A stretch of DNA of 41,214 nucleotides from Armatimonadota bacterium. Lineage in GTDB: Bacteria > Armatimonadota > Hebobacteria > CAIYQO01. The position numbers and the translations under genes are program-made. The notes beneath the pieces are model-generated. The model was not told the origin of the DNA and did not search any database. It saw only the letters and a program-made list of their open reading frames with translations. The stretch covers positions 1 through 41,214 of the forward strand of contig JAKPKV010000108.1 of the NCBI GenBank assembly GCA_029553475.1, in the 5' to 3' direction. The first letter of the stretch is position 1, and each line of letters begins with the position of its first letter. Shown here in pieces: positions 2,931 to 41,214 of the stretch.

Positions 2931-5138
2931 TTATACGGAAGCAGCTTCTCGCTGCTCCTCCACTTTCGCGATGAATTGGCGGAACCAGTCTTTATCACGC
3001 ACGCTTTCCAGGTCTCTATCAGCCATCAAGTGTTCGACAGATGGTAATGTGTCATGCGCTAATGCGGTTTCGAGCCAGTGCAGGCATTCTTCATCTTTTC
3101 CCTGGAGGGCTTTCACGCATGCAAGGTTATAGACCTTTCTATTCTCCGACAGTTCTGCTGAACGAATGCAGATTTTTTCGGCTTCTCCTAAGAAATCGCA
3201 TATTTCCGCATGTATATGCAAATGAAAACGGGCAACCAGGGCGATGCCCCAGTTATTGAGCGCCTCGTGCATGTCCGGCTTGACGGCGATAGCGGCGGCA
3301 TAGCGCTCGCAGGCGTCGGCGAAGAGGGCCTCGGCGGCAGCCCCCTCCGTCAGCCCGGCGCGATCAGCCAGGGCACTGCCCCAGTTGTAGAGCGCCGCGT
3401 GCTTGTCCGGCTTGACGGCGACGGCGGCGGCGTAGCGCTCGCAGGCGTCGGCGAAGAGGGCATCGGCGGCAGCCCCTTCCGTCAGCCGGGCGCGAGCATC
3501 TAGGGCACTGCCCCAGTTGTTGAGCGCCTCGTGCGTGTCCGGCTTGACGGCGCCGGCGGCGGCGTAGCGCTCGCAGGCGTCGATCAAAAGGGCCTCGGCG
3601 GCAGCCCCTTCCGTCAGCCGGGCGCGAGCATCCAGGGCACTGCCCCAGTTATTGAGCGCCTCATGCATGTCCGGCTTGACGGCGACGGCGGCGGCGTAGC
3701 GCTCGCAGGCGTCGAGCAAGAGGGCCTCGGCGGCAGCCCCTTCCGTCAGCCCGGCGCGGGCAGTCAGGGCGATGCCCCAGTTGTAGAGCGCCTCGTGTTT
3801 GTCCGGCTTGACGGCGACGGCGGCGGCGTAGCGCTCGCAAGCGTCGGCGAAGAGGGCCTCGGCGGCAGCCCCCTCCGTCAGCCGGGCGCGGGCAGTCAGG
3901 GCATTGCCCCAGTTGTAGAGCGCCTCGTGTGTATCTGGACGTAGTTCGACAGAGAGCGCGTATTCATCACATGCCATTGAATAGAGCTTGTCCTTTTCCT
4001 CCAGGCACGCTTGCTCAGCTTGTATGTAATAATTGTTTCCTAAACCCCAGTGAGCTTGGGAGAGAATGCTGGTTAATTGAGGATCTTCACTATTAGTTTC
4101 GGTAATATAAGCAATAACTTCTGTATATTTTCCGGCCATCAGTAAGGATTGTGCTTGACGGATAATTGCTGAGCGCGTTTCTGTCGAATCTGATGGTCGG
4201 TCATCTGTCTCTTCAAAGAGTTCTATTGCTTGCTGGATTGTACTGCGGGCTTCGATGTCAATATTGGACGTTTGGCCAGGAGGGGAGTATGGCATTAGAG
4301 TATCGAGAAGAGTGCCAATATATGTAAACGGTTGTGTGATGAATTCTGGAGGAAAGCAATCAAGCTTTTGGGCTAATGTTACAAAGAAGTCATCGGCATC
4401 GTAGCCCTTAAGAAAATAGGCTTCCTTGCCTTCTTTTAGTAATTCATCAACTACATGTTTTTTAGGATCATCGTCCTTATAGCCAACCCAGAAAAGGCGG
4501 TAATCAAATTGTGGAACTCGGGCAAGATGCCCAAAGACGGGGTCACACTCGCCGCTATACCCAACAACAAGCCACATGCGACCTCGTCCGGCATCTTCGA
4601 AAACAGGAGCAAGACGTTCGGCGTGAGTGTTTACCGCTTCTCTTGTATTCATCAGCACAAAGCCTGTATGCTGTCCATGAAGATAAAAGATGGCTTGCTC
4701 AGGGATGAAAGCTGACTTGAATAATTGTGATGCCGCAAAATCATATGATGCAGGAAAAACACCCAACATGGCACAGGCGCGAGCTACAAGGGGATCAAAA
4801 TTCGTAGTTAATACACGCTCGATATACCCAGACTTCATTAATTGAGCAATTCCAACATGTGCCCAGTTGATTTTCGCTCCATTGACATATTGGGCAATAA
4901 GATCACGCTGCATAGCTGGTGAAAGCTGTGCCATGCAGCAGGGATATGACTCTTCTGAAGCACGGTTGTAAAAGTGTGGATGTTGTTTTTTGATGATATC
5001 TACAAATCCAGCGGCTGTTGGTATGCCGGCCTTTACTGAGCAGCCTGCCCCAATAAGAAGGGAACACCCACCTCTTCCTGTATCCTTCATCATATTCAGC
5101 GTGGCGATTACATCATCAATGGTCCGTTCCCAATCCAT
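2931..5138 (-). CDS. SIR2-like NADase fused to a TPR array (putative defence protein)
   Basis: 735 aa. An N-terminal SIR2-like Rossmann domain (about 20-260) shows GAGCS (30-34), TTNFD with Asn113 and Asp115, LHG with His154, and GYS (193-195), so the NAD-binding and catalytic positions look intact. After a linker, TPR-like helices run from about 340 to 650, with near-identical 44-residue units containing ACERYAAAVAVKPD and HEAL(Y/N)NWG; a more diverged TPR-like tail follows. SIR2-TPR and SIR2-STAND proteins are known antiphage NAD-depleting effectors; function here is inferred from architecture. The SIR2 half is visibly AT-richer than its neighbours, which suggests transfer. GAGG lies just upstream of the ATG at 5138. 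No partner gene lies beside it. Confidence 0.82.
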   Translation of the reverse strand: MDWERTIDDVIATLNMMKDTGRGGCSLLIGAGCSVKAGIPTAAGFVDIIKKQHPHFYNRASEESYPCCMAQLSPAMQRDLIAQYVNGAKINWAHVGIAQLMKSGYIERVLTTNFDPLVARACAMLGVFPASYDFAASQLFKSAFIPEQAIFYLHGQHTGFVLMNTREAVNTHAERLAPVFEDAGRGRMWLVVGYSGECDPVFGHLARVPQFDYRLFWVGYKDDDPKKHVVDELLKEGKEAYFLKGYDADDFFVTLAQKLDCFPPEFITQPFTYIGTLLDTLMPYSPPGQTSNIDIEARSTIQQAIELFEETDDRPSDSTETRSAIIRQAQSLLMAGKYTEVIAYITETNSEDPQLTSILSQAHWGLGNNYYIQAEQACLEEKDKLYSMACDEYALSVELRPDTHEALYNWGNALTARARLTEGAAAEALFADACERYAAAVAVKPDKHEALYNWGIALTARAGLTEGAAAEALLLDACERYAAAVAVKPDMHEALNNWGSALDARARLTEGAAAEALLIDACERYAAAGAVKPDTHEALNNWGSALDARARLTEGAAADALFADACERYAAAVAVKPDKHAALYNWGSALADRAGLTEGAAAEALFADACERYAAAIAVKPDMHEALNNWGIALVARFHLHIHAEICDFLGEAEKICIRSAELSENRKVYNLACVKALQGKDEECLHWLETALAHDTLPSVEHLMADRDLESVRDKDWFRQFIAKVEEQREAASV
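3261..3950 (-). repeat. Tandem 132-bp repeats encoding TPR units
   Basis: The plus-strand anchor CGCC(T/G)CGTG recurs at 3261, 3393, 3525, 3657, 3789 and 3921, always exactly 132 bp apart. Units differ at only a few bases. They encode 44-residue TPR-like units inside the SIR2-TPR gene. Near identity at DNA level suggests recent duplication or gene conversion, so copy number may vary between strains or be misassembled. Confidence 0.95.
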
Positions 5139-33545: not shown

Positions 33546-34364
33546 ATGATGAAGATGTGGTGGATGGTCTGGCTGTTCGCGTGCCTGTCGGCGCTGGCCA
33601 CGCCGCCGGCGGGCACGGCGCCGATCGTGGGCGGTGAACGGGCCTTTCTCTATGGCGGCGCCGCGAAAGGGAAGTGGCTGGATACCGCAACGGTGCAGCC
33701 GATGCTCACCGGCGGCGAGCGCTATCGCCTCTACAGCGCCGCGCGCTTCCTGGGCATCGGCACCGGCAGCGCGGCGCGGGAGGACGGCGGCACGTCACCG
33801 TGCATCGCGCTGACGCTGCCCGCCGGGGTGAAGGACGGCGAGGTGGTGGTGGGCGTCAGCGGCGCGTGGAACGCGCTGCCGCGCGTGCCGAAGGCGCAGG
33901 ACCTATCACAAAAAACCTATCAGGACGTCGTGCGCGAATTACTGGCACGCAAGGGCCTGCCCGGCGCGCCTGTCCGCCTGAAAAAACTCTGGCGCCTTGA
34001 TCTCGAGGGCGATGGCGTGGAAGAAGTCCTCATCGAAGCCGCCACCCCGCGCGCCGGTTTTGGGCGCGAAACGCCGTATAAACGCGGCGACTATTCGCTG
34101 GTGCTGCTCCGCAAAGTCGTCAACGGCACCGCGCGCACCATCCCTCTCGCGCTCAGTTATTACCTCCACGACGCCTCGCCGGACCTCCCCTACCACGCTC
34201 CGCCGATCATCCACACCCTCCAGGGCGCGTTCGACCTCAACGGCGATGGGAACATGGAAGTGGTCATCCGCAGCGACGCCACCGCCGAGCGATGGGATTC
34301 CGTCTTCGAAATCCACGGCGCCACGCCGAAGGCAACGGCGCTCTCCGGAGGAGACTGGATATAG
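33546..34364 (+). CDS. Exported protein with two Asp-rich (FG-GAP/EF-hand-like) loops
   Basis: 272 aa. An N-terminal hydrophobic signal (MMKMWWMVWLFACLSALA) precedes an unassigned domain. Two loops, DLEGDGVEEVLIEA and DLNGDGNMEVVIRS, have the D-x-(N/E)-G-D-G spacing of calcium-binding FG-GAP or dockerin-like motifs. GGGAG lies just upstream of two adjacent ATGs (33546, 33549). Probably co-transcribed with the LamG gene. Its function is unknown. Downstream to 34653 I see only an inverted-repeat structure and no supported gene. Confidence 0.65.
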   Translation: MMKMWWMVWLFACLSALATPPAGTAPIVGGERAFLYGGAAKGKWLDTATVQPMLTGGERYRLYSAARFLGIGTGSAAREDGGTSPCIALTLPAGVKDGEVVVGVSGAWNALPRVPKAQDLSQKTYQDVVRELLARKGLPGAPVRLKKLWRLDLEGDGVEEVLIEAATPRAGFGRETPYKRGDYSLVLLRKVVNGTARTIPLALSYYLHDASPDLPYHAPPIIHTLQGAFDLNGDGNMEVVIRSDATAERWDSVFEIHGATPKATALSGGDWI

Positions 34365-34515
34365 CGAACGCGAGACGCCGCGGAAGCCGCAGCCGCAAGG
34401 CGAGTGGGTCGCGAGCGTGCTGATGCCGGCGCGGCAGGGCGGATGCGCGGTCTGGTGCACGCCGCGAGTAGCACCGATCTGGCCGATGATGCATCCGGCA
34501 ACATAACGCGGAATT

Positions 34516-34598
34516 TTGGTCTGCGACCGTTGTGGAGGACAGAATCTGTCCCCTCGACGGTGGTATCGTTGGATCGTGAACCCATCATTGCTGACCAA
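34516..34598. other. Inverted-repeat region before the cas locus
   Basis: The palindrome GGACAGA-A-TCTGTCC (34537-34551) is enclosed by ACCGT/ACGGT (34527-34531 and 34557-34561), and outside these TTGGTC (34516-34521) pairs with GACCAA (34593-34598). This could be a terminator of the upstream unit or part of the cas operon control region. No -35/-10 pair stands out. Confidence 0.4.
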
Positions 34599-34653
34599 CC
34601 GGTTGGGAAAGCTGCTGTTGGCGGCGAAGATTCATGAGCGAGGGCGGATAACC

Positions 34654-34938
34654 ATGGACCTGCGGATGCTGCGGGGCAAGACTGTCGCGGACGGCGCGTA
34701 TCACCCGTTGCGCTGTCACCCGTTTGACGTGGCGGCCGTGTGTAGCGTGCTTCCAAGCCCAGCAGCATTGCTGGCTCCCTTGGCTGTTGCCTGTCTCCCC
34801 TTCCTCGCGGCCCTGCATGACATCGGCAAAGCCGATCCCCGTTTTCGACACAAAAAGCTGCGGTGCGCACAGCGTTTTGCCTGGTCGCGCCGCGCTACCA
34901 CAGATCGGAGGACGATGTGCTGTCATTTAACCTGGTGA
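34654..34938 (+). pseudogene. cas3: cas3 relic: truncated HD-nuclease N-terminus
   Basis: An ATG at 34654 opens MDLRMLRGKTVADGAYHPL, then CHPFDVAAV (His 22 and Asp 25 of the fragment) and, after a hydrophobic helix, FLAALHDIGKADPRFRHK. This matches the start of type I-E Cas3, whose HD domain has (Y/H)xxxCHxxDVAAV and LHDIGK with the metal-binding His-Asp pair (34816-34821 here). Recognisable similarity stops near 34854, and the frame then runs to a stop at 34938, overlapping the cas8e start. The rest of the HD domain and the whole helicase, about 800 codons, are absent from the window. Position directly before cas8e is the normal cas3 place. It might still give a ~94-aa peptide, but not an active nuclease-helicase. 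Confidence 0.82.
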
Positions 34939-36371
34939 CGGATCCCTGGATCCCTGTACTCTGGCAGGATGGTAAAGTCTCACGTATCGGTATCTTCGAA
35001 ACGTTGGTGCGCGCGAATCAAATCCGCACCATCGCCGCCAGTAACCCAATGGATCGAATGGCGGTCATGCGCTTCCTGCTTGCCGTACTGTATTGGTGCA
35101 AAGGCAACCCAACGGAATCACTACCAGCCAGCACAGCTTTTCCTGCCTCCTGGTTTGAGAAACTGAAGGCCTCCCATCGATCTTTTGAATTACTGGGTGG
35201 GGGAAGACGTTTCTATCAGTTCCTTCCTTCTGTGACGGAACGGATGCCAGAGAAACTATCTGCGAATTATCTCATACAAGAAGTGCCGACAGGTTCTAAT
35301 CATTGGCATTTCCGGCATTCGACTGATAAAGAGGACGGGCTATGTCTGGCATGCTGTGCCTTCGGATTGTTACGCTTACCCCTCTTTTCAACATCGGGTG
35401 GCCGAGGTAAACCGCCAGGCATCAATGCGAAACCGCCGATGTATGTACTACCTATCGGCGTGTCACTTGCTGAAACTCTCTTGCTGTCTTGGCAGCCGAC
35501 ACGTCAGCTTGGTTTACCCATCTGGGAGACACCAGCATTACTGATTCCGCAAGCGGGAGAGGTACCTTTGCTCACGGGATTCACCTGGGTACCACGGCGT
35601 GTATGGTTGGGTGACCCAACAAATTGCGAAGAGCGTTGTGTTGCATGTGGAGACACGAGGCAGCTGATCAAGCTATGCACCTTTGCGGGCATTGGAAGTA
35701 CAAAAACAGACGAAGATTCTCCCGAGCGCCTCTGGCGTGATCCACATGTGCTTTATACAGCTGAAGGATCACTACATGCGAGTGACGCCCTTGGCGCTAG
35801 CGATGCTGCGGCAGGCCAGTGGACTAAGACATTTATCAGTCTCTTACGCGATCAGAATTTCACGGATTCGCTTCGCCAAGTAATGCAGTCGCGGGGGATC
35901 AGTGAGACACACGTTCGAGTATGGGTTGTCGGGTTTGCTACAGTGCAAAACGATAAATATCTGGAAGCGTGGGAATCTACGCTACCTGTTCCAAGTGTAG
36001 CGCAGTCGAGAGACGGCGCCATGCGAGTTGAGCGGTGGCAGAAAGAAAGCGCAAGCATCGTCGAAAAGATCTGCCCATCGCACGCGAAAACCAACCGTGG
36101 GAAACGCCGTCGCGTCGAGATCCGCTCACTCATCAGCGCCATCCGACCCCATGTCGAACATGTTGTGTCCGCAAACGCGGGCCGCCTGCTTGCTGGCCGT
36201 GATGCCGACTGGGAGCAGGCGGCGAATGCATACGCGCCAATGATGGTGCTGCTTGCGCAGGCATTGGCTCCGGGGATGACCGCGACAGCTCTGCAGCGCC
36301 GGAAAGCACTTGCCGCGGTGAGGCCAACGCTCACGCCGCGCCCATCAAAAAAGAAAGGAGGTGCGCAATGA
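34917..36371 (+). CDS. cas8e: Cas8e (Cse1/CasA), large subunit of type I-E Cascade
   Basis: 484 aa from GTG 34917, preferred because GGAGG (34907-34911) lies 5 nt upstream and the protein then begins with the family start (M/V)LSFNLVTDPWIPVL. Further family blocks are CLACCAFGLLRLP, GGRGKPPGIN, TWVPRRVWLG and the CxxC-type segment CVACGD. It recognises the PAM and recruits the effector nuclease in standard I-E systems; here no Cas3 is available. The gene is visibly AT-richer than the carbohydrate genes, especially in its first two thirds. Its stop overlaps the cas11 start (ATGA), so translation is probably coupled. The family is certain; a changed Cas3-docking surface would be worth examining. 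Confidence 0.93.
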   Translation: MLSFNLVTDPWIPVLWQDGKVSRIGIFETLVRANQIRTIAASNPMDRMAVMRFLLAVLYWCKGNPTESLPASTAFPASWFEKLKASHRSFELLGGGRRFYQFLPSVTERMPEKLSANYLIQEVPTGSNHWHFRHSTDKEDGLCLACCAFGLLRLPLFSTSGGRGKPPGINAKPPMYVLPIGVSLAETLLLSWQPTRQLGLPIWETPALLIPQAGEVPLLTGFTWVPRRVWLGDPTNCEERCVACGDTRQLIKLCTFAGIGSTKTDEDSPERLWRDPHVLYTAEGSLHASDALGASDAAAGQWTKTFISLLRDQNFTDSLRQVMQSRGISETHVRVWVVGFATVQNDKYLEAWESTLPVPSVAQSRDGAMRVERWQKESASIVEKICPSHAKTNRGKRRRVEIRSLISAIRPHVEHVVSANAGRLLAGRDADWEQAANAYAPMMVLLAQALAPGMTATALQRRKALAAVRPTLTPRPSKKKGGAQ

Positions 36372-36847
36372 GTTCGACCCCACTGTTTATCGCCCGACTC
36401 AGCCAATTGAAGCCGGGCGAATTGGGCCTGCTGCGCACGCATGCGGCACAGCGTCTGGATGAATCCATCGAAGGATTCGACCTGTTCACCGGGCTCTGGT
36501 GGCCCTTGCGCCAGCAGCGCGCGGATGCTCCACGGCGCGAGGTTGCCTGGCTCATCGCCAAACTATATGCGGCGGTGCCGTTGCCTCACCAAGCCGGCAA
36601 GACGCTTGCGCGCCAGCTTGCCCGATGTCAGCCCAGTGATGCGAAGGCGCGCGCACGGTATCAGCAGCGATTTGATCGCCTGCTGCAACTACCGCTCAGC
36701 GATATTGAACCGGCCTTACGCTGGGCGCTCGGTCACATCGCTGCGATACACCCCGGTCTCGATTGGGTGCAACTGACTGATGATCTCTCGAGTTCGGAAC
36801 GCGACGCTATCCGCCATCGGTGGGCGGTACACTATCTCGAACCATAA
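36368..36847 (+). CDS. cas11: Cas11 (Cse2/CasB), small subunit of Cascade
   Basis: 159 aa and mostly helical, the expected size of Cse2. Typical elements are LSQLKPGELGLLRTHA near the start, WWPLRQQ, and the late segment FDRLLQLPLSDIEPALRWALGHI followed by LDWVQLTDDL. Two copies normally sit along the belly of Cascade and stabilise crRNA and non-target strand. It overlaps cas8e by four bases, and the cas7 gene follows after 15 nt. Confidence 0.92.
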   Translation: MSSTPLFIARLSQLKPGELGLLRTHAAQRLDESIEGFDLFTGLWWPLRQQRADAPRREVAWLIAKLYAAVPLPHQAGKTLARQLARCQPSDAKARARYQQRFDRLLQLPLSDIEPALRWALGHIAAIHPGLDWVQLTDDLSSSERDAIRHRWAVHYLEP

Positions 36848-36862
36848 CGAAAGGACACGACC

Positions 36863-38053
36863 ATGTTGATTGACATCCATGCGATTCAGAACCACAGCCC
36901 GGCCAATCTCAACCGGGATGACCTGGGCGCCCCGAAGACCTGCTATTTCGGCGGCGTGCTGCGCTCGCGCATCTCCAGCCAGTGCTTGAAGCGCAGCATC
37001 CGCAAAAGTCGCGAATTCCAACGACTGCTTGGCGGCGTGCGTACCCGCCAACTGGCCCGGCTCATCGCCGAGGAAGTCGGTGGTTCGTCCGCAGTATGCA
37101 AGCGTGCCGAGAAGATCCTTGATCTCTGCGGTCTGAAGCCCAAAAAAGAAAAGAAGGCGGCGGAAAGCGAAGATATCGGCGGCAGTGAAAAAAGTAAAAT
37201 GCTCGTTTATACGACATGCGAGGCTATCACCGCCATGGCGATGCTGCTGCGTGACGGCGACACGAAGAGCGACGACGAACTGGCGGTGGACTTGAGGGAT
37301 CTGATCGTGAAGCACGTCGCCGTACCGGACATGGCACTGTGCGGACGCATGCTCGAACCCGACAAAAGCGCGAAAAGTCTGTGGAAAGGCATTGACAGCA
37401 CCGTTGAGGCAGCCTTGCAGGTAATGCATGCCATCTCCACGCACGAAGCCCGTCCCGAGGTTGACTATTACGTCGCCGCCGATGACAAACGCTTTCCCGG
37501 TGACGACGCTGGCGCGGGCTACGTGGACGAAGCGATGTTCGCCTCCGCGTGCTTCTATAAATACTTCTCCATCCACTGGGAGACGCTGGTGGCGAATCTG
37601 CGGGGGAATACGGCGCTCGCCGCGCATACAGTCGGCGCGTTCCTGCGCGGGGCCGCGCTGGCAAACCCGACCGGTAAGCAGAACAGCTTTGCCGCACACA
37701 ATCTCCCCGATGGCATCCTCGTGGAACTCCGCGATTTCCCCATCAGTTACGCCAATGCCTTCGCCGATCCGGCCAGCCGTGGGGAACGGGGCCTGGTGGC
37801 CCAGAGCATCGCCATGCTGGCCCAGTACGTTTATGACCTTGATGCGGGCTATGGGGCACCGGCGCACCGCTTCTGGTTCTCACCGAACCAGCGCTACCCG
37901 TTGGCGGTCGTCACCGGCCAGCAGACGACGCCAGTAACCGCGCAGCCCGTGGCGGCACTGGAGGCGCTGGTACCGGCGGTCATCACGGCGATCGGGTATA
38001 CCTGGAGCGATGTGCAACGAGAGGTCGTGCGCGCGGTCGAGGTGACGTTATGA
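36863..38053 (+). CDS. cas7: Cas7e (Cse4/CasC), Cascade backbone subunit
   Basis: 396 aa. The N-terminus IDIHAIQNHSPANLNRDDLG and GGVLRSRISSQCLKRSIRKS is the conserved crRNA-binding start of Cas7e; later blocks are MLVYTTCEAITAMA, DMALCGRM, FASACFYKYFSIHWETL and NSFAAHNLPDGI. Six copies usually form the spiral on the crRNA. A short Lys/Glu-rich insert (KPKKEKKAAESED, about residues 93-105) makes it slightly longer than usual. The RBS GAAAGGA precedes the ATG, and the stop overlaps the cas5 start (ATGA). Confidence 0.94.
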   Translation: MLIDIHAIQNHSPANLNRDDLGAPKTCYFGGVLRSRISSQCLKRSIRKSREFQRLLGGVRTRQLARLIAEEVGGSSAVCKRAEKILDLCGLKPKKEKKAAESEDIGGSEKSKMLVYTTCEAITAMAMLLRDGDTKSDDELAVDLRDLIVKHVAVPDMALCGRMLEPDKSAKSLWKGIDSTVEAALQVMHAISTHEARPEVDYYVAADDKRFPGDDAGAGYVDEAMFASACFYKYFSIHWETLVANLRGNTALAAHTVGAFLRGAALANPTGKQNSFAAHNLPDGILVELRDFPISYANAFADPASRGERGLVAQSIAMLAQYVYDLDAGYGAPAHRFWFSPNQRYPLAVVTGQQTTPVTAQPVAALEALVPAVITAIGYTWSDVQREVVRAVEVTL

Positions 38054-39147
38054 GCGCCCCAACGCTCTTCCTGCGCCTGGAAGGGCCGCTGCAAGCGTGG
38101 GGCATCGCGGACTCCAAGTTCGTGATCCGGCGTACGGCGGGGGCACCGACGAAATCTGGCGTTATCGGGTTGCTGTGCGCGGCGCGGGGTGTGCCCCGTG
38201 CCGACGCCGGGTCTCTGCTCTCCACCCTGACCGCCTTGCGCATGGGCGTGCGCGTGGACCGGCCTGGCGTGCGCTGGTGGGACTACCACACCGTGGGCGC
38301 CAGGATGAAGATGCGCACCGCCGAAGGCGGCGCGAAAGACGGCGTGTTGCTCTCACGGCGCGAGTATTTGTGCGATGCCTCCTTCCTGGTAGCCTTGCAG
38401 GGCGAAGCACAGCTTATTGATCAACTGACGATCGCTCTGCGCGCGCCGTGTTGGCCACCGTACCTGGGTCGGAAAGCCTGCCCGCCGTCGCGTCCGTTGC
38501 TGGAACATCCAGGCGGCGTGTTCCCGGACGTGCTGACCGCGCTGAGAGCCGTCCCCTGGCGCAAACGCTTGCGTGCTGACACGCCTCCCGATGTCATTGA
38601 GTGTTTCGTGGACTGGGTGCCGACGTCCGATTGCCCGTTGGCGCCTGATGACGCCGAGGTCTGGTATGATGTGCCGACCTCCTTTGATCCCCCGGCGCAT
38701 CAACCACGCTTCGTTCTCCGGCATTCGCTCTGCGTGGGGCATGGCGGTGATCTGGCCATCGTGGAGGAGCCGATACAACGGCCGACACCGCGTCCGCCAC
38801 GTTCGCGAGCCAATTACCGCAATTCAGCGTACCGGCAAGCCCGCGCAGCGCGTTTGGACGCGGATCACCAACTCTGTGTCTTCTGCAAGAATCCCGCGAC
38901 TACCGTACAGCATATCACCTATCGGCGGGCAGGTGGTAACGAGACGCAGGACGATTTACGGTCGTTGTGCGGGTTGTGCCATGACGCTGTCACGATGCTT
39001 GAATATGGCATGGGCATGGGCATGGACCGTATCAATCCAGAAGAGCCCCGCTGGCGCACGGCCATCATTGAACAGCGGCAAGAGATTTTGCGCTTCCGGT
39101 CGCTCGAAACTCGGCGCCGTCGTCTGAATGCAGAGGAGGTAGAATAA
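38050..39147 (+). CDS. cas5: Cas5e with C-terminal HNH nuclease domain (Cas5-HNH)
   Basis: 365 aa against about 225-245 for ordinary Cas5e. Residues 1-240 are a normal Cas5e: LFLRLEGPLQAWG, TAGAPTKSGVIGLL, YLCDASFLVAL, PYLGRKACPPSRPL. After a Pro/Arg linker (PIQRPTPRPPRSR, 241-253) comes an HNH module: C276-x2-C279, TVQHITYRR with H288 as likely general base, GGNETQDDLRSL, then C307-x2-C310-H311, ending in a charged helix. The middle HNH Asn position appears to be Asp (D302), a tolerated variant. The frame is continuous with no stop between domains. HNH fusions to Cas5 (I-E) and Cas8 (I-F) have been reported as rare Cas3-less Cascades that cut DNA themselves; here the HNH probably supplies the missing target cleavage. 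Confidence 0.92.
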   Translation: MSAPTLFLRLEGPLQAWGIADSKFVIRRTAGAPTKSGVIGLLCAARGVPRADAGSLLSTLTALRMGVRVDRPGVRWWDYHTVGARMKMRTAEGGAKDGVLLSRREYLCDASFLVALQGEAQLIDQLTIALRAPCWPPYLGRKACPPSRPLLEHPGGVFPDVLTALRAVPWRKRLRADTPPDVIECFVDWVPTSDCPLAPDDAEVWYDVPTSFDPPAHQPRFVLRHSLCVGHGGDLAIVEEPIQRPTPRPPRSRANYRNSAYRQARAARLDADHQLCVFCKNPATTVQHITYRRAGGNETQDDLRSLCGLCHDAVTMLEYGMGMGMDRINPEEPRWRTAIIEQRQEILRFRSLETRRRRLNAEEVE

Positions 39148-39149
39148 CC

Positions 39150-39875
39150 ATGTACCGATCCGCCTTGCTGATTGATGTCGGCACCAATCCCGACCGCCCA
39201 CGACCCGGACGCACCTGGTTGCGCAATGCGTATCGCGTCCACCAGCGGCTCTGCATGGCGTTCCCGTCCAACGAACGGCGCGCGAATGATGTCGCCTTTC
39301 TCCAGCCTTATGCCCCCGAAGACTTCGCGCCAGCACAGGTGCACACCACACGTAGCGCCGAGGCCGGGCTCCTTTTTCGCGTGGATCCGCTGCCGAATGG
39401 CCGGGCGGCCATTATCGTCCAATCCGCCTATGCCCCGGATTGGAACTATGCGTTTCAGAATGTAGATTTCCTGGCGGCGCCGCCAGTTGTGAAGGTATAT
39501 GACCCACAACCTGCTATCGATCAGGCATGGCGCTTCCGCCTGCGCGCCAACCCGACTAAGCGTCTCACCGCGGGCCGGCCGGGCGAACGGGGGGATGGCG
39601 CGCGTGTCCAACTCTTCAGCGACGAGGCGCAGCGCGCGTGGCTTGCGCGGAAGGCGGCAGCCTCAGGCTTTGCATTGGTGGATTGCCGTGTCAGCAGTTC
39701 CGAGCGTCAGGTGAGCCGTAAAAGCCAGAGCGGGCCGGCGATGGTCCATCAGGCCGTCACCTTCGACGGCCTCCTCCGCGTCACCGCTCCCGTCGCCTTC
39801 CGCGCGGCGCTGGAGGCGGGTATCGGCTCGGCGAAGGGGTTCGGCTTTGGGCTGCTGTCGATTGCCAGGGGGTGA
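39150..39875 (+). CDS. cas6e: Cas6e (Cse3/CasE), crRNA-processing endoribonuclease
   Basis: 241 aa. The N-terminal ferredoxin-like fold contains LRNAYRVHQRL with His31 at the place of the catalytic His of Cas6e. FRLRANPTKRL is the conserved central strand, and GIGSAKGFGFGLLSIA is the C-terminal Gly-rich RNA-binding loop. It cuts the repeat hairpin to leave an 8-nt 5' handle, predicted here as GUGAACCG. It starts 2 nt after cas5. All key elements are intact, so crRNA production should work. Confidence 0.94.
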   Translation: MYRSALLIDVGTNPDRPRPGRTWLRNAYRVHQRLCMAFPSNERRANDVAFLQPYAPEDFAPAQVHTTRSAEAGLLFRVDPLPNGRAAIIVQSAYAPDWNYAFQNVDFLAAPPVVKVYDPQPAIDQAWRFRLRANPTKRLTAGRPGERGDGARVQLFSDEAQRAWLARKAAASGFALVDCRVSSSERQVSRKSQSGPAMVHQAVTFDGLLRVTAPVAFRAALEAGIGSAKGFGFGLLSIARG

Positions 39876-39878
39876 ACC

Positions 39879-40793
39879 ATGCCGCGGATGGATGATTTGC
39901 ATCTGCTGCCGAAGGTGCGCGATATGCTCTCGTTCATCTACGTGGAGCATGCGCGCATTGATCAGCATAACCGGGCCGTTGCGGCCTATGACGACGAGGG
40001 GGTGACGCCCATCCCCATCGCCGCCACTGCCGTGCTGCTGCTCGGGCCGGGCACGCGCGTGACCCACGCGGCGATGGCGGCGCTGGCCGACAACGACGCG
40101 CTGGCCGTCTGGGTGGGTGAAGCCGGCGTGCGCTGCTATGCCCATGGCATGAGGGGCAGGCGGAGCAGCGGGGCGCTCCTCCGCCAGGCGGCGCTGGCCT
40201 CCAACGAGGTTTCACGGCTGGAAGTGGTAAAAAGGATGTACCGGCTGCGCTTCCAGGAGGCACTGGAGGAGGGGCTGACGGTGGAACAACTCCGCGGCCT
40301 GGGGGGCGTGCGCGTGCGCGATACCTATGCCCGCATGAGCCGCGACACCGGTGTGCCGTGGACGGGGCGCCACTACGACCGGGGCAACTGGCAACAGGCC
40401 GATCCAGTGAACCGCGCGCTCTCCGCGGCGAACTCCTGTCTCTACGGCCTCTGTCAGGCGGCGATCCTGTCCATCGGCATGAGTCCGGCCATCGGCTTCA
40501 TTCATACGGGCAAGCAGCTTTCCTTCGTCTGCGACATCGCCGACCTGTACAAAACGGAGCTAACCCTTCGAAGTCGCCGCCGAGCAGCCGGACGGGCTGG
40601 AGCGCGCCTGCCGCCTGCGCTGCCGCGATCTCTTCAAGGAGCGGACGCTGCTTCAGCGCATCGTGCCGGACATTCGGGCGGTGCTGAATGAGCCGGATGA
40701 CGAGGAGGAGCCTTCACCCCGGATGAGGATCCGGCGCTGCCGACGGCCCTCTGGACACCCAGCACCGAGGGTGAGATGCTGACGGAGGGATGA
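39879..40793 (+). pseudogene. cas1: cas1 with lost catalytic Glu and two frame breaks
   Basis: Type I-E Cas1 integrase (LLGPGTRVTHAAM, AVWVGEAGVR, SAANSCLYGL, IGFIHTGKQLSFV) whose active site and C-terminus are damaged. In Escherichia coli Cas1 the metal ligands are E141, H208 and D221; here the aligned positions are Gly142 (GGG at 40302-40304 in LRGLGGVRVR), His209 and Asp222. After DLYKTELT the frame breaks at 40563-40567: the expected continuation FEVAAEQPDGLER is in the next frame, as if about 11 bp were lost. Near 40700-40710 the reading returns to the first frame (AFTPDEDPALPTALW), as if one G were lost, and runs to TGA 40791-40793, 3 nt before cas2. Unrepaired translation stops at 40691. 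Sequencing error could explain one shift, but hardly the Glu loss as well. Confidence 0.8.
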
Positions 40794-40796
40794 GCA

Positions 40797-41090
40797 ATGG
40801 TGGTGATGATCCTGGAACATGTGACGCCAGCAGCACGGGGGGAAGTCACCCGCTGGCTGCTGGAACCGCGTGCTGGCGTCTTCATCGGCACCGTCTCGGC
40901 GATGGTGCGCGAGAAACGATGGGCCTTCCTGGTGAAAAAACACCCGACATGCGCCATGACGATGTTCTACAGCGCGAAGACCGAGCAGGAGTTCGCCATC
41001 CGCACCCGCGGCGATACCACGCGAAAAGTCCGCGACTTCGACGGTCTCGCGCTGGTGACGCGCCGCGAGCAGCAACTCACACAGAAATAG
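40797..41090 (+). CDS. cas2: Cas2 (type I-E)
   Basis: 97 aa, normal size. It shows the I-E Cas2 pattern: MVVMILEHVTPAARGEVTRW, FIGTVSAMVREKRW, then YSAKTEQEFAIRTRGDTTRKV and DFDGLALVTRRE. Cas2 forms the structural core of the Cas1-Cas2 integrase; with Cas1 broken it would have no partner. GGAGGG lies upstream of the ATG, 3 nt after the presumed cas1 stop. It ends 17 nt before the first CRISPR repeat. Confidence 0.92.
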   Translation: MVVMILEHVTPAARGEVTRWLLEPRAGVFIGTVSAMVREKRWAFLVKKHPTCAMTMFYSAKTEQEFAIRTRGDTTRKVRDFDGLALVTRREQQLTQK

Positions 41091-41106
41091 CGAATAGAAT
41101 TTTGCG

Positions 41107-41214
41107 AGTGTCCCCACGCACGTGGGGGTGAACCGACGCGGTGGCGCTGGCGAACACGGCACTCCAAAGTGTCCCCACGCACGTGGGGGTGAACCGCGAA
41201 CGCCGACGGCGAGG
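41107..41214 (+). CRISPR. Start of a type I-E CRISPR array (two repeats visible, cut by window end)
   Basis: Two identical repeats, 41107-41135 and 41168-41196, are 29 nt if the preceding A is counted (28 without it), with one complete 32-nt spacer between them and a second spacer running off the window. The period is 61 bp, standard for I-E. The repeat has the stem CCCCACGCACGTGGGG and ends GTGAACCG, the future crRNA 5' handle, so transcription is left to right, as for the cas genes. Only about 17 nt separate it from cas2, so the usual AT-rich leader is missing or lies inside cas2. Confidence 0.95.

Follow-up and report, generated by a model that had tools for sequence, protein, structure and literature searches.

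A rare variant of the type I-E Cascade in which Cas5 carries an HNH domain has been named type I-E2 (PMC12669027). The Cas5-HNH Cascade of Candidatus Cloacimonetes cuts double-stranded DNA (dsDNA) precisely and without Cas3, in a manner that depends on the HNH residues (PMC10910872), and a structure summary of this homologue, together with its HNH-dependent cutting of target dsDNA, is available (PMC11822464). Shuffling of effector modules around a fixed adaptation module is a recognised trend (PMC6452270, PMC12669027).

Here, we analysed 41,214 nucleotides of an Armatimonadota bacterium (contig JAKPKV010000108.1 of assembly GCA_029553475.1), hereafter the window, in which the original prediction, made from the letters of the DNA, had placed a Cas5e-HNH fusion in a complete Cascade operon that had lost Cas3. 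Our results indicate that the operon is a member of the already published type I-E2. Moreover, we propose, with a probability of roughly 80%, that the window encodes an I-E2 nuclease Cascade that cuts without Cas3 and lies in a locus formed by cassette replacement.

The window operon is a member of type I-E2

All cas proteins of the window exceeded their Pfam cut-offs, and the five-gene Cascade cas8e-cas11-cas7-cas5-cas6 is complete (Table 1). No Rfam families were found within positions 34000-41214.

Table 1 Features of the CRISPR-Cas locus, with positions counted along the window
Feature	Position	Strand	Remarks
cas3 5' stub	34591..34935	+	covers ~65 N-terminal residues of the HD domain before it breaks off; directly 5' of cas8e
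cas8e (Cse1), I-E2 type	34917..36371	+	PF09481; conserved N-terminus points to a GTG start at 34917, with GGAGG ahead
cas11 (Cse2)	36368..36847	+	PF09485
cas7e (Cse4)	36863..38053	+	PF09344, TIGR01869
cas5e-HNH	38050..39147	+	single frame, ATG start, 365 aa, no internal stops; Cas5e ~1-230, Pro/Arg linker ~244-253, HNH core 276-314, C-terminal helical tail
cas6e (Cse3), I-E2 type	39150..39875	+	PF08798
cas1e	39879..40796	+	TIGR03638; frame-disrupted after ~residue 230
cas2e	40797..41090	+	PF09707
CRISPR array start	41107..41214	+	repeats of 29 nt, spacers of 32 nt; truncated where the contig ends (41214)

In profile searches, the N-terminal part of the uninterrupted fusion frame was recognised as Cas5e by TIGR01868 (158.7 bits against a cut-off of 68.95, residues 5-183) and the C-terminal part as HNH by PF01844 (22.8 bits, barely above the cut-off of 21.4, residues 276-314), the two parts being joined by the linker RPTPRPPRSR. 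The predicted combination of Cas5e and a C-terminal HNH domain in one protein, with a Pro/Arg linker between them, was thus confirmed. The frame contains neither a stop nor a frameshift between Cas5 and HNH, and the fusion is no assembly accident, because ~63 further loci from many phyla have the identical architecture. The closest solved structures, obtained by cryo-EM, are the Candidatus Cloacimonetes Cas5-HNH Cascades 8YB6, 8YHA, 8ZLU, 8ZP7 and 9JXS (~420 bits over both domains), and a structure-model search showed the fusion to be 54-57% identical to Cloacimonetes Cas5-HNH over the whole protein. An AlphaFold model of the fusion, which was of moderate quality (pLDDT 75.9, pTM 0.56), matches these solved I-E HNH Cascade structures and adds little beyond them.

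The HNH core contains C276, C279, H288, D302, C307, C310 and H311. When the 64 distinct I-E2 loci analysed (the window and ~63 further loci) were aligned, all 64 kept C276, H288, C310 and H311, whereas C279 and C307 were each present in 63. As is usual in the HNH family, the four Cys are probably zinc ligands, and H288, D302 and H311 are presumably the catalytic and metal residues. The six residues originally listed as a zinc ribbon (C276, C279, H288, C307, C310 and H311) are therefore present and conserved, but that list mixes zinc-ligand with catalytic and metal roles. The middle position of the HNH motif is Asp in 51 loci, Glu in 11, Ala in one and Thr in one, and Asp is also found in the solved Cloacimonetes protein. 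Asp instead of Asn at this position was thus read correctly from the sequence, but it is the rule of the family, and it was rejected as the mark of a sub-class.

A scan with an alignment of the HNH tail, covering one genome per species, gave 62 I-E2 loci distributed over many phyla, seven of which are from the same phylum as the window. One more I-E2 locus (L122) was found on a contig classed as viral (IMGVR_UViG_3300005916_000376 in IMG/VR), and this contig with its Cas5-HNH Cascade operon may represent a mobile carrier or else host DNA that was misclassified. Among plasmid records, no match covered at least 80% of the query, and the best matches listed were plain Cas5e. The window shares with the I-E2 loci a Cas5e and HNH in one polypeptide, a five-gene Cascade, conserved HNH residues, effector genes placed within the I-E2 clade, repeats of 29 nt separated by 32-nt spacers, and no functional cas3 at the locus, which is typical of I-E2 and not absolute. 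The distinctiveness claimed for it was not upheld: since most I-E2 loci are without cas3 and Asp is common to the family, the window is an ordinary I-E2 member.

A cas3 stub at the locus and a canonical I-E operon elsewhere in the genome

The frame directly upstream of cas8e matched PF18019 (Cas3_HD) with 42.7 bits against a cut-off of 23.1, over profile positions 2-85 of 207. On another contig of the same genome, C12, we found a canonical I-E operon with an intact 882-aa Cas3 and a Cas5e without HNH, whose repeats differ from those of the window by one base. The earlier picture of a complete Cascade with loss of Cas3 consequently held for the Cascade and for the truncation of cas3, but a 5' stub remains at the locus and an intact Cas3 is encoded on C12. 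The stub is similar to C12 cas3 at the DNA level over positions 34673-34854, and C12 is its best DNA match among the canonical loci (69.9% over 186 bp). Between the window and C12, Cas1 is 81% identical (over 230 aa), Cas2 74%, Cas6 48%, Cas7 47% and Cas8e 25%; between the window and other I-E2 loci, identity reaches 70% for Cas7 and 57% for Cas8e. The window thus has neither the intact cas3 nor the HNH-free Cas5e of a canonical I-E operon, while its cas1, cas2 and repeat are those of canonical I-E kin.

Compared with C12 Cas1, the window cas1 has a small deletion near 40556 and a stop at 40689, and returns to the C12-like frame near 40716; the gene is either broken or affected by an assembly error close to the contig end. 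Beside this disrupted cas1, C12 offers Cas1-Cas2 with a nearly identical repeat. In addition, the genome (G000) encodes Cas3-HD proteins of 800-811 aa on contigs C132 (L015) and C118 (L016) and a third Cas1 (326 bits, C132), so it carries type I systems beyond the two I-E ones. Far from the cas genes, window positions 3233-3892 hold a 132-nt unit in five tandem copies, 87-90% identical to the first.

Arrays with 29-nt repeats and 32-nt spacers were found on contigs C36 and C71. Positions 1-68 of C71 (L052) are the same as window positions 41068-41135 and comprise the last 40 nt of the leader and the first repeat; the first spacer that follows is a different one, and C71 has 12 identical repeats in total (the first and 11 more). 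The sampled population probably contains two array haplotypes, and the shared leader end followed by different first spacers suggests recent spacer turnover. When 12 pooled spacers were compared with phage records, a single partial match was obtained (78-80%, Gordonia phages), and three exact scans of viral contigs for spacer targets gave zero matches; no PAM was inferred, as no spacer target was found in either set.

Cas1 and the effector genes group differently

Trees were calculated from 53-64 I-E2 sequences and 23-31 canonical sequences. All I-E2 sequences formed one clade in the Cas6 tree (support 97). For Cas1, 10 label changes were needed, and a single I-E2 Cas1 clade was rejected (p-AU 1.8e-65), the window Cas1 being sister to C12 Cas1 with a support of 100. 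The Cas5 and Cas7 trees, whose sets include long rows, needed two label changes rather than one, and the nearest neighbours of the window Cas7 were I-E2 throughout. The canonical loci came almost exclusively from the phylum of the window, so that in other phyla swaps are not contradicted by the I-E2 Cas1 clades that seem to exist there.

Similar pairings were found elsewhere. The I-E2 locus L058 pairs with canonical L139 and L178 of the same genus (Cas1 99% and Cas6 43% identical between L058 and L178), L063 pairs with canonical L168 of the same genome (Cas1 98%, Cas6 40%), and L053 groups with L137 and L179 (Cas1 79%, Cas6 47%). Effector exchange, recognised by close cas1 genes together with distant effectors, was evident for L063/L168 and L058/L178. 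The threshold used for module exchange in PMC12669027 is 90%, and the window Cas1, at 81%, falls below it. As the Cas1 proteins of the window and C12 are only 81% identical, the swap in the window may be old or may predate arrival of the locus in this genome.

Junctions at the end of cas6 and stubs of the first gene

On the right side, DNA similarity between I-E2 loci and their canonical partners starts within the last 50-120 nt of cas6, continues into cas1, and extends through cas2 and the array where contigs reach. In the window, similarity to C12 starts at 39755, inside the 3' end of cas6 (76.7%), and the identity in cas1-cas2 is ~77%. A junction at the 3' end of cas6 was also found in L181/L168 (92.8%), L058/L178 and L053/L179, the similarity in L058/L178 being broken by ~450 bp between cas6 and cas1 in L178. 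The jump is sharp in L181/L168, which are two loci of one genome, and falls in the last ~50 nt of cas6, at the codons of the Gly-rich C-terminal motif; the junction is blurred in the other pairs because this Cas6 motif is functionally conserved. The upstream contig of the L058 operon (genome G030) was sought and not found, so that this pair was read on the right side only.

On the left side, cas3 stubs stand before the I-E2 cas8e in the window, L180, L165 and L166. Among the 49 I-E2 loci whose contigs extend 500 bp or more beyond the 5' end of cas8e, only 4 have such a stub, and the stub as an ancient fossil common to all I-E2 was rejected for this reason. I-E2-type cas8 stubs precede the I-E2 operons of L166 and L109; in L166 (positions 3334-4860; Nitrospirae), a cas8 stub of this type, a cas3 stub and an apparent nucleotidyltransferase-like frame follow one another ahead of the intact operon. 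The reverse arrangement was found in canonical L178, where an I-E2-type cas8 stub lies ahead of an intact cas3; among the matches listed for this stub, itself aside, all are I-E2, with the window as the best. In genome G015, a 290-aa 5' stub (L190:10066-10962, minus strand) lies ahead of a canonical operon and comes from another canonical cas3, so that exchanges between canonical cassettes seem to be marked by the same footprint.

Every stub counted scored above its Pfam cut-off, with a match that begins at position 1 or 2 of the profile. As a control, the 3 kb that precede the first intact gene were searched at 80 loci for fragments of cas11, cas7, cas5, cas6, cas1 and cas2, and none were found. 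On these grounds, chance was rejected as the source of the stubs. A 26-aa cas3 stub in L167 (E 7e-4) and an internal 26-aa piece in L087 were left out of the stub evidence.

Proposed replacement of a resident Cascade

Because the stub and cas1 of the window share the best partner, C12, while the Cascade genes match I-E2, these data support a swap at this locus. We suggest that an I-E2 cas8-cas11-cas7-cas5HNH-cas6 block recombined into a resident canonical I-E locus, with a left break within the resident cas3 that would have left approximately its first 65 codons and a right break at the 3' end of cas6, and that cas1, cas2, leader and array of the resident locus were retained. In such an exchange, the incoming cassette would enter just inside the outgoing first gene and recross near the end of cas6, and the promoter side of the resident locus would be kept. 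The swap may have occurred in this host lineage or in a relative whose swapped locus later came here. By the same route, L178 would have undergone a swap in the opposite direction, and L166 would have been swapped twice in succession. More generally, I-E2 probably travels as a self-sufficient effector cassette devoid of cas3, which overwrites resident canonical Cascades and can itself be overwritten, rather than arising by slow loss of cas3, and the stubs of cas3 or cas8e would then be a readable record of swaps in which cas1, cas2 and the array are kept.

Remnants of cas3 near I-E2 operons have been read as a progressive disappearance of the gene (PMC10910872). Under such decay, the I-E2 operon's own cas3 would have become dispensable after capture of the HNH domain and eroded in place, leaving the stub as its last trace, which agrees with the earlier reports of remnants and with the position of the stub, in the place of cas3 in canonical operons. 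However, a neutral fossil would not remain ~56% identical to a working Cas3 while the I-E2 effectors diverge to 50-65%, and the stubs are exclusively 5' ends. Moreover, erosion of cas3 does not account for the I-E2-type cas8 stub before the intact canonical cas3 of L178, nor for a Cas1 that tracks the canonical partner and not the I-E2 effector genes. We therefore consider decay in place unlikely, and under the cassette-swap account the published remnants are better read as truncation by replacement.

Probable cleavage of the target and the role of Cas3

The HNH domain on Cas5 is very likely a built-in target nuclease, because the homologous complex cuts dsDNA via its HNH (PMC10910872, PMC11822464) and the window protein retains every catalytic and zinc position. 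The original prediction is supported in this part, but it had missed the cas3 stub and the canonical-type adaptation module, which together tell more about the locus. By analogy with the Cloacimonetes homologue, in which this was seen, the complex would be guided by its crRNA to a target with a PAM and form an R-loop there. The Cas5 HNH, held between Cas6 and Cas11, would then cut the two strands close to the PAM-distal end, and Cas3 would not be needed.

Alternatively, the Cas3 of C12 might help or be needed in trans, with the HNH as an accessory. The genome does contain this intact I-E Cas3 together with nearly identical repeats, and complete canonical I-E operons also occur in some other I-E2 carriers (L167, L168 and L170), where Cas3 may likewise help in trans. 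However, Cas3_HD gave some match in 28 of 50 I-E2 carrier genomes and a match over the cut-off in 20, leaving 30 with none over the cut-off, and the Cloacimonetes complex cuts without Cas3. In addition, Cas8e, the subunit that recruits Cas3 in canonical I-E, is only 25% identical between the window and C12 operons. This alternative is thus distinctly improbable, and cleavage by the HNH of the I-E2 Cascade itself is preferred.

The remaining two explanations are very improbable. A misjoin of canonical and I-E2 contigs near cas1 and cas3 might be suspected in a contig from a 194-contig assembly with frameshifts in cas1, but the DNA identity between the window and C12 in cas1-cas2 is far too low for a repeat-driven misjoin and the arrangement was found again in independent genomes. 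That I-E2 systems keep the stub as a small, functional HD protein would agree with an open frame that has its own start codon and, in the window and L180, the HD motif, but truncation points vary from ~26 to 85 residues, the L165 stub is without the HD motif, most of the HD domain is missing, and most I-E2 loci have no stub.

Comparison with known systems

With ~63 further loci and the window, the class of precise CRISPR cutters relevant to editing is enlarged. The stub and tree evidence leads to an account of the absence of cas3 in I-E2 that differs from the published one, and supplies a concrete sequence footprint for locating effector-cassette swaps in type I loci. In the literature open to search, we found neither this stub-and-junction footprint nor its use on I-E2. 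Since one genome holds two Cascades whose repeats are almost identical, the question also arises whether crRNAs and adaptation proteins are shared.

The window resembles the Cloacimonetes I-E2 system in its Cas5e with a C-terminal HNH, its five-gene Cascade, the absence of a functional cas3, and the same zinc and catalytic residues including Asp, but differs from it in belonging to the phylum Armatimonadota, in the 5' stub of cas3, in canonical-type Cas1, Cas2 and repeats, and in the second, canonical operon. With canonical I-E systems (C12; the E. coli Cascade 4QYZ and 4U7U), it shares the gene order cas8-cas11-cas7-cas5-cas6-cas1-cas2, whereas its cas3 is truncated, its Cas5 is fused to HNH, and its Cascade genes are only 25-48% identical. 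The HNH core also has a weak sequence similarity (E ~0.005) to IscB (e.g. 7UTN, 7XHT), a single-protein RuvC/HNH nuclease. Like the window, I-F4 (Cas8-HNH) and IV-A2 (CasDinG-HNH) carry HNH on a class 1 effector subunit, but the carrier protein and the subtype are others; I-F4 is likewise typically without Cas3 (PMC12669027), and the HNH domains of I-F4 and IV-A2 have been described as separate acquisitions (PMC10910872). As in the module exchange described in the searchable text of PMC12669027, the adaptation module and array stay in place while the effector module is replaced; unlike the exchange described there, the one proposed here is resolved for I-E2, by 5' stubs of the first gene and junctions at the 3' end of cas6.
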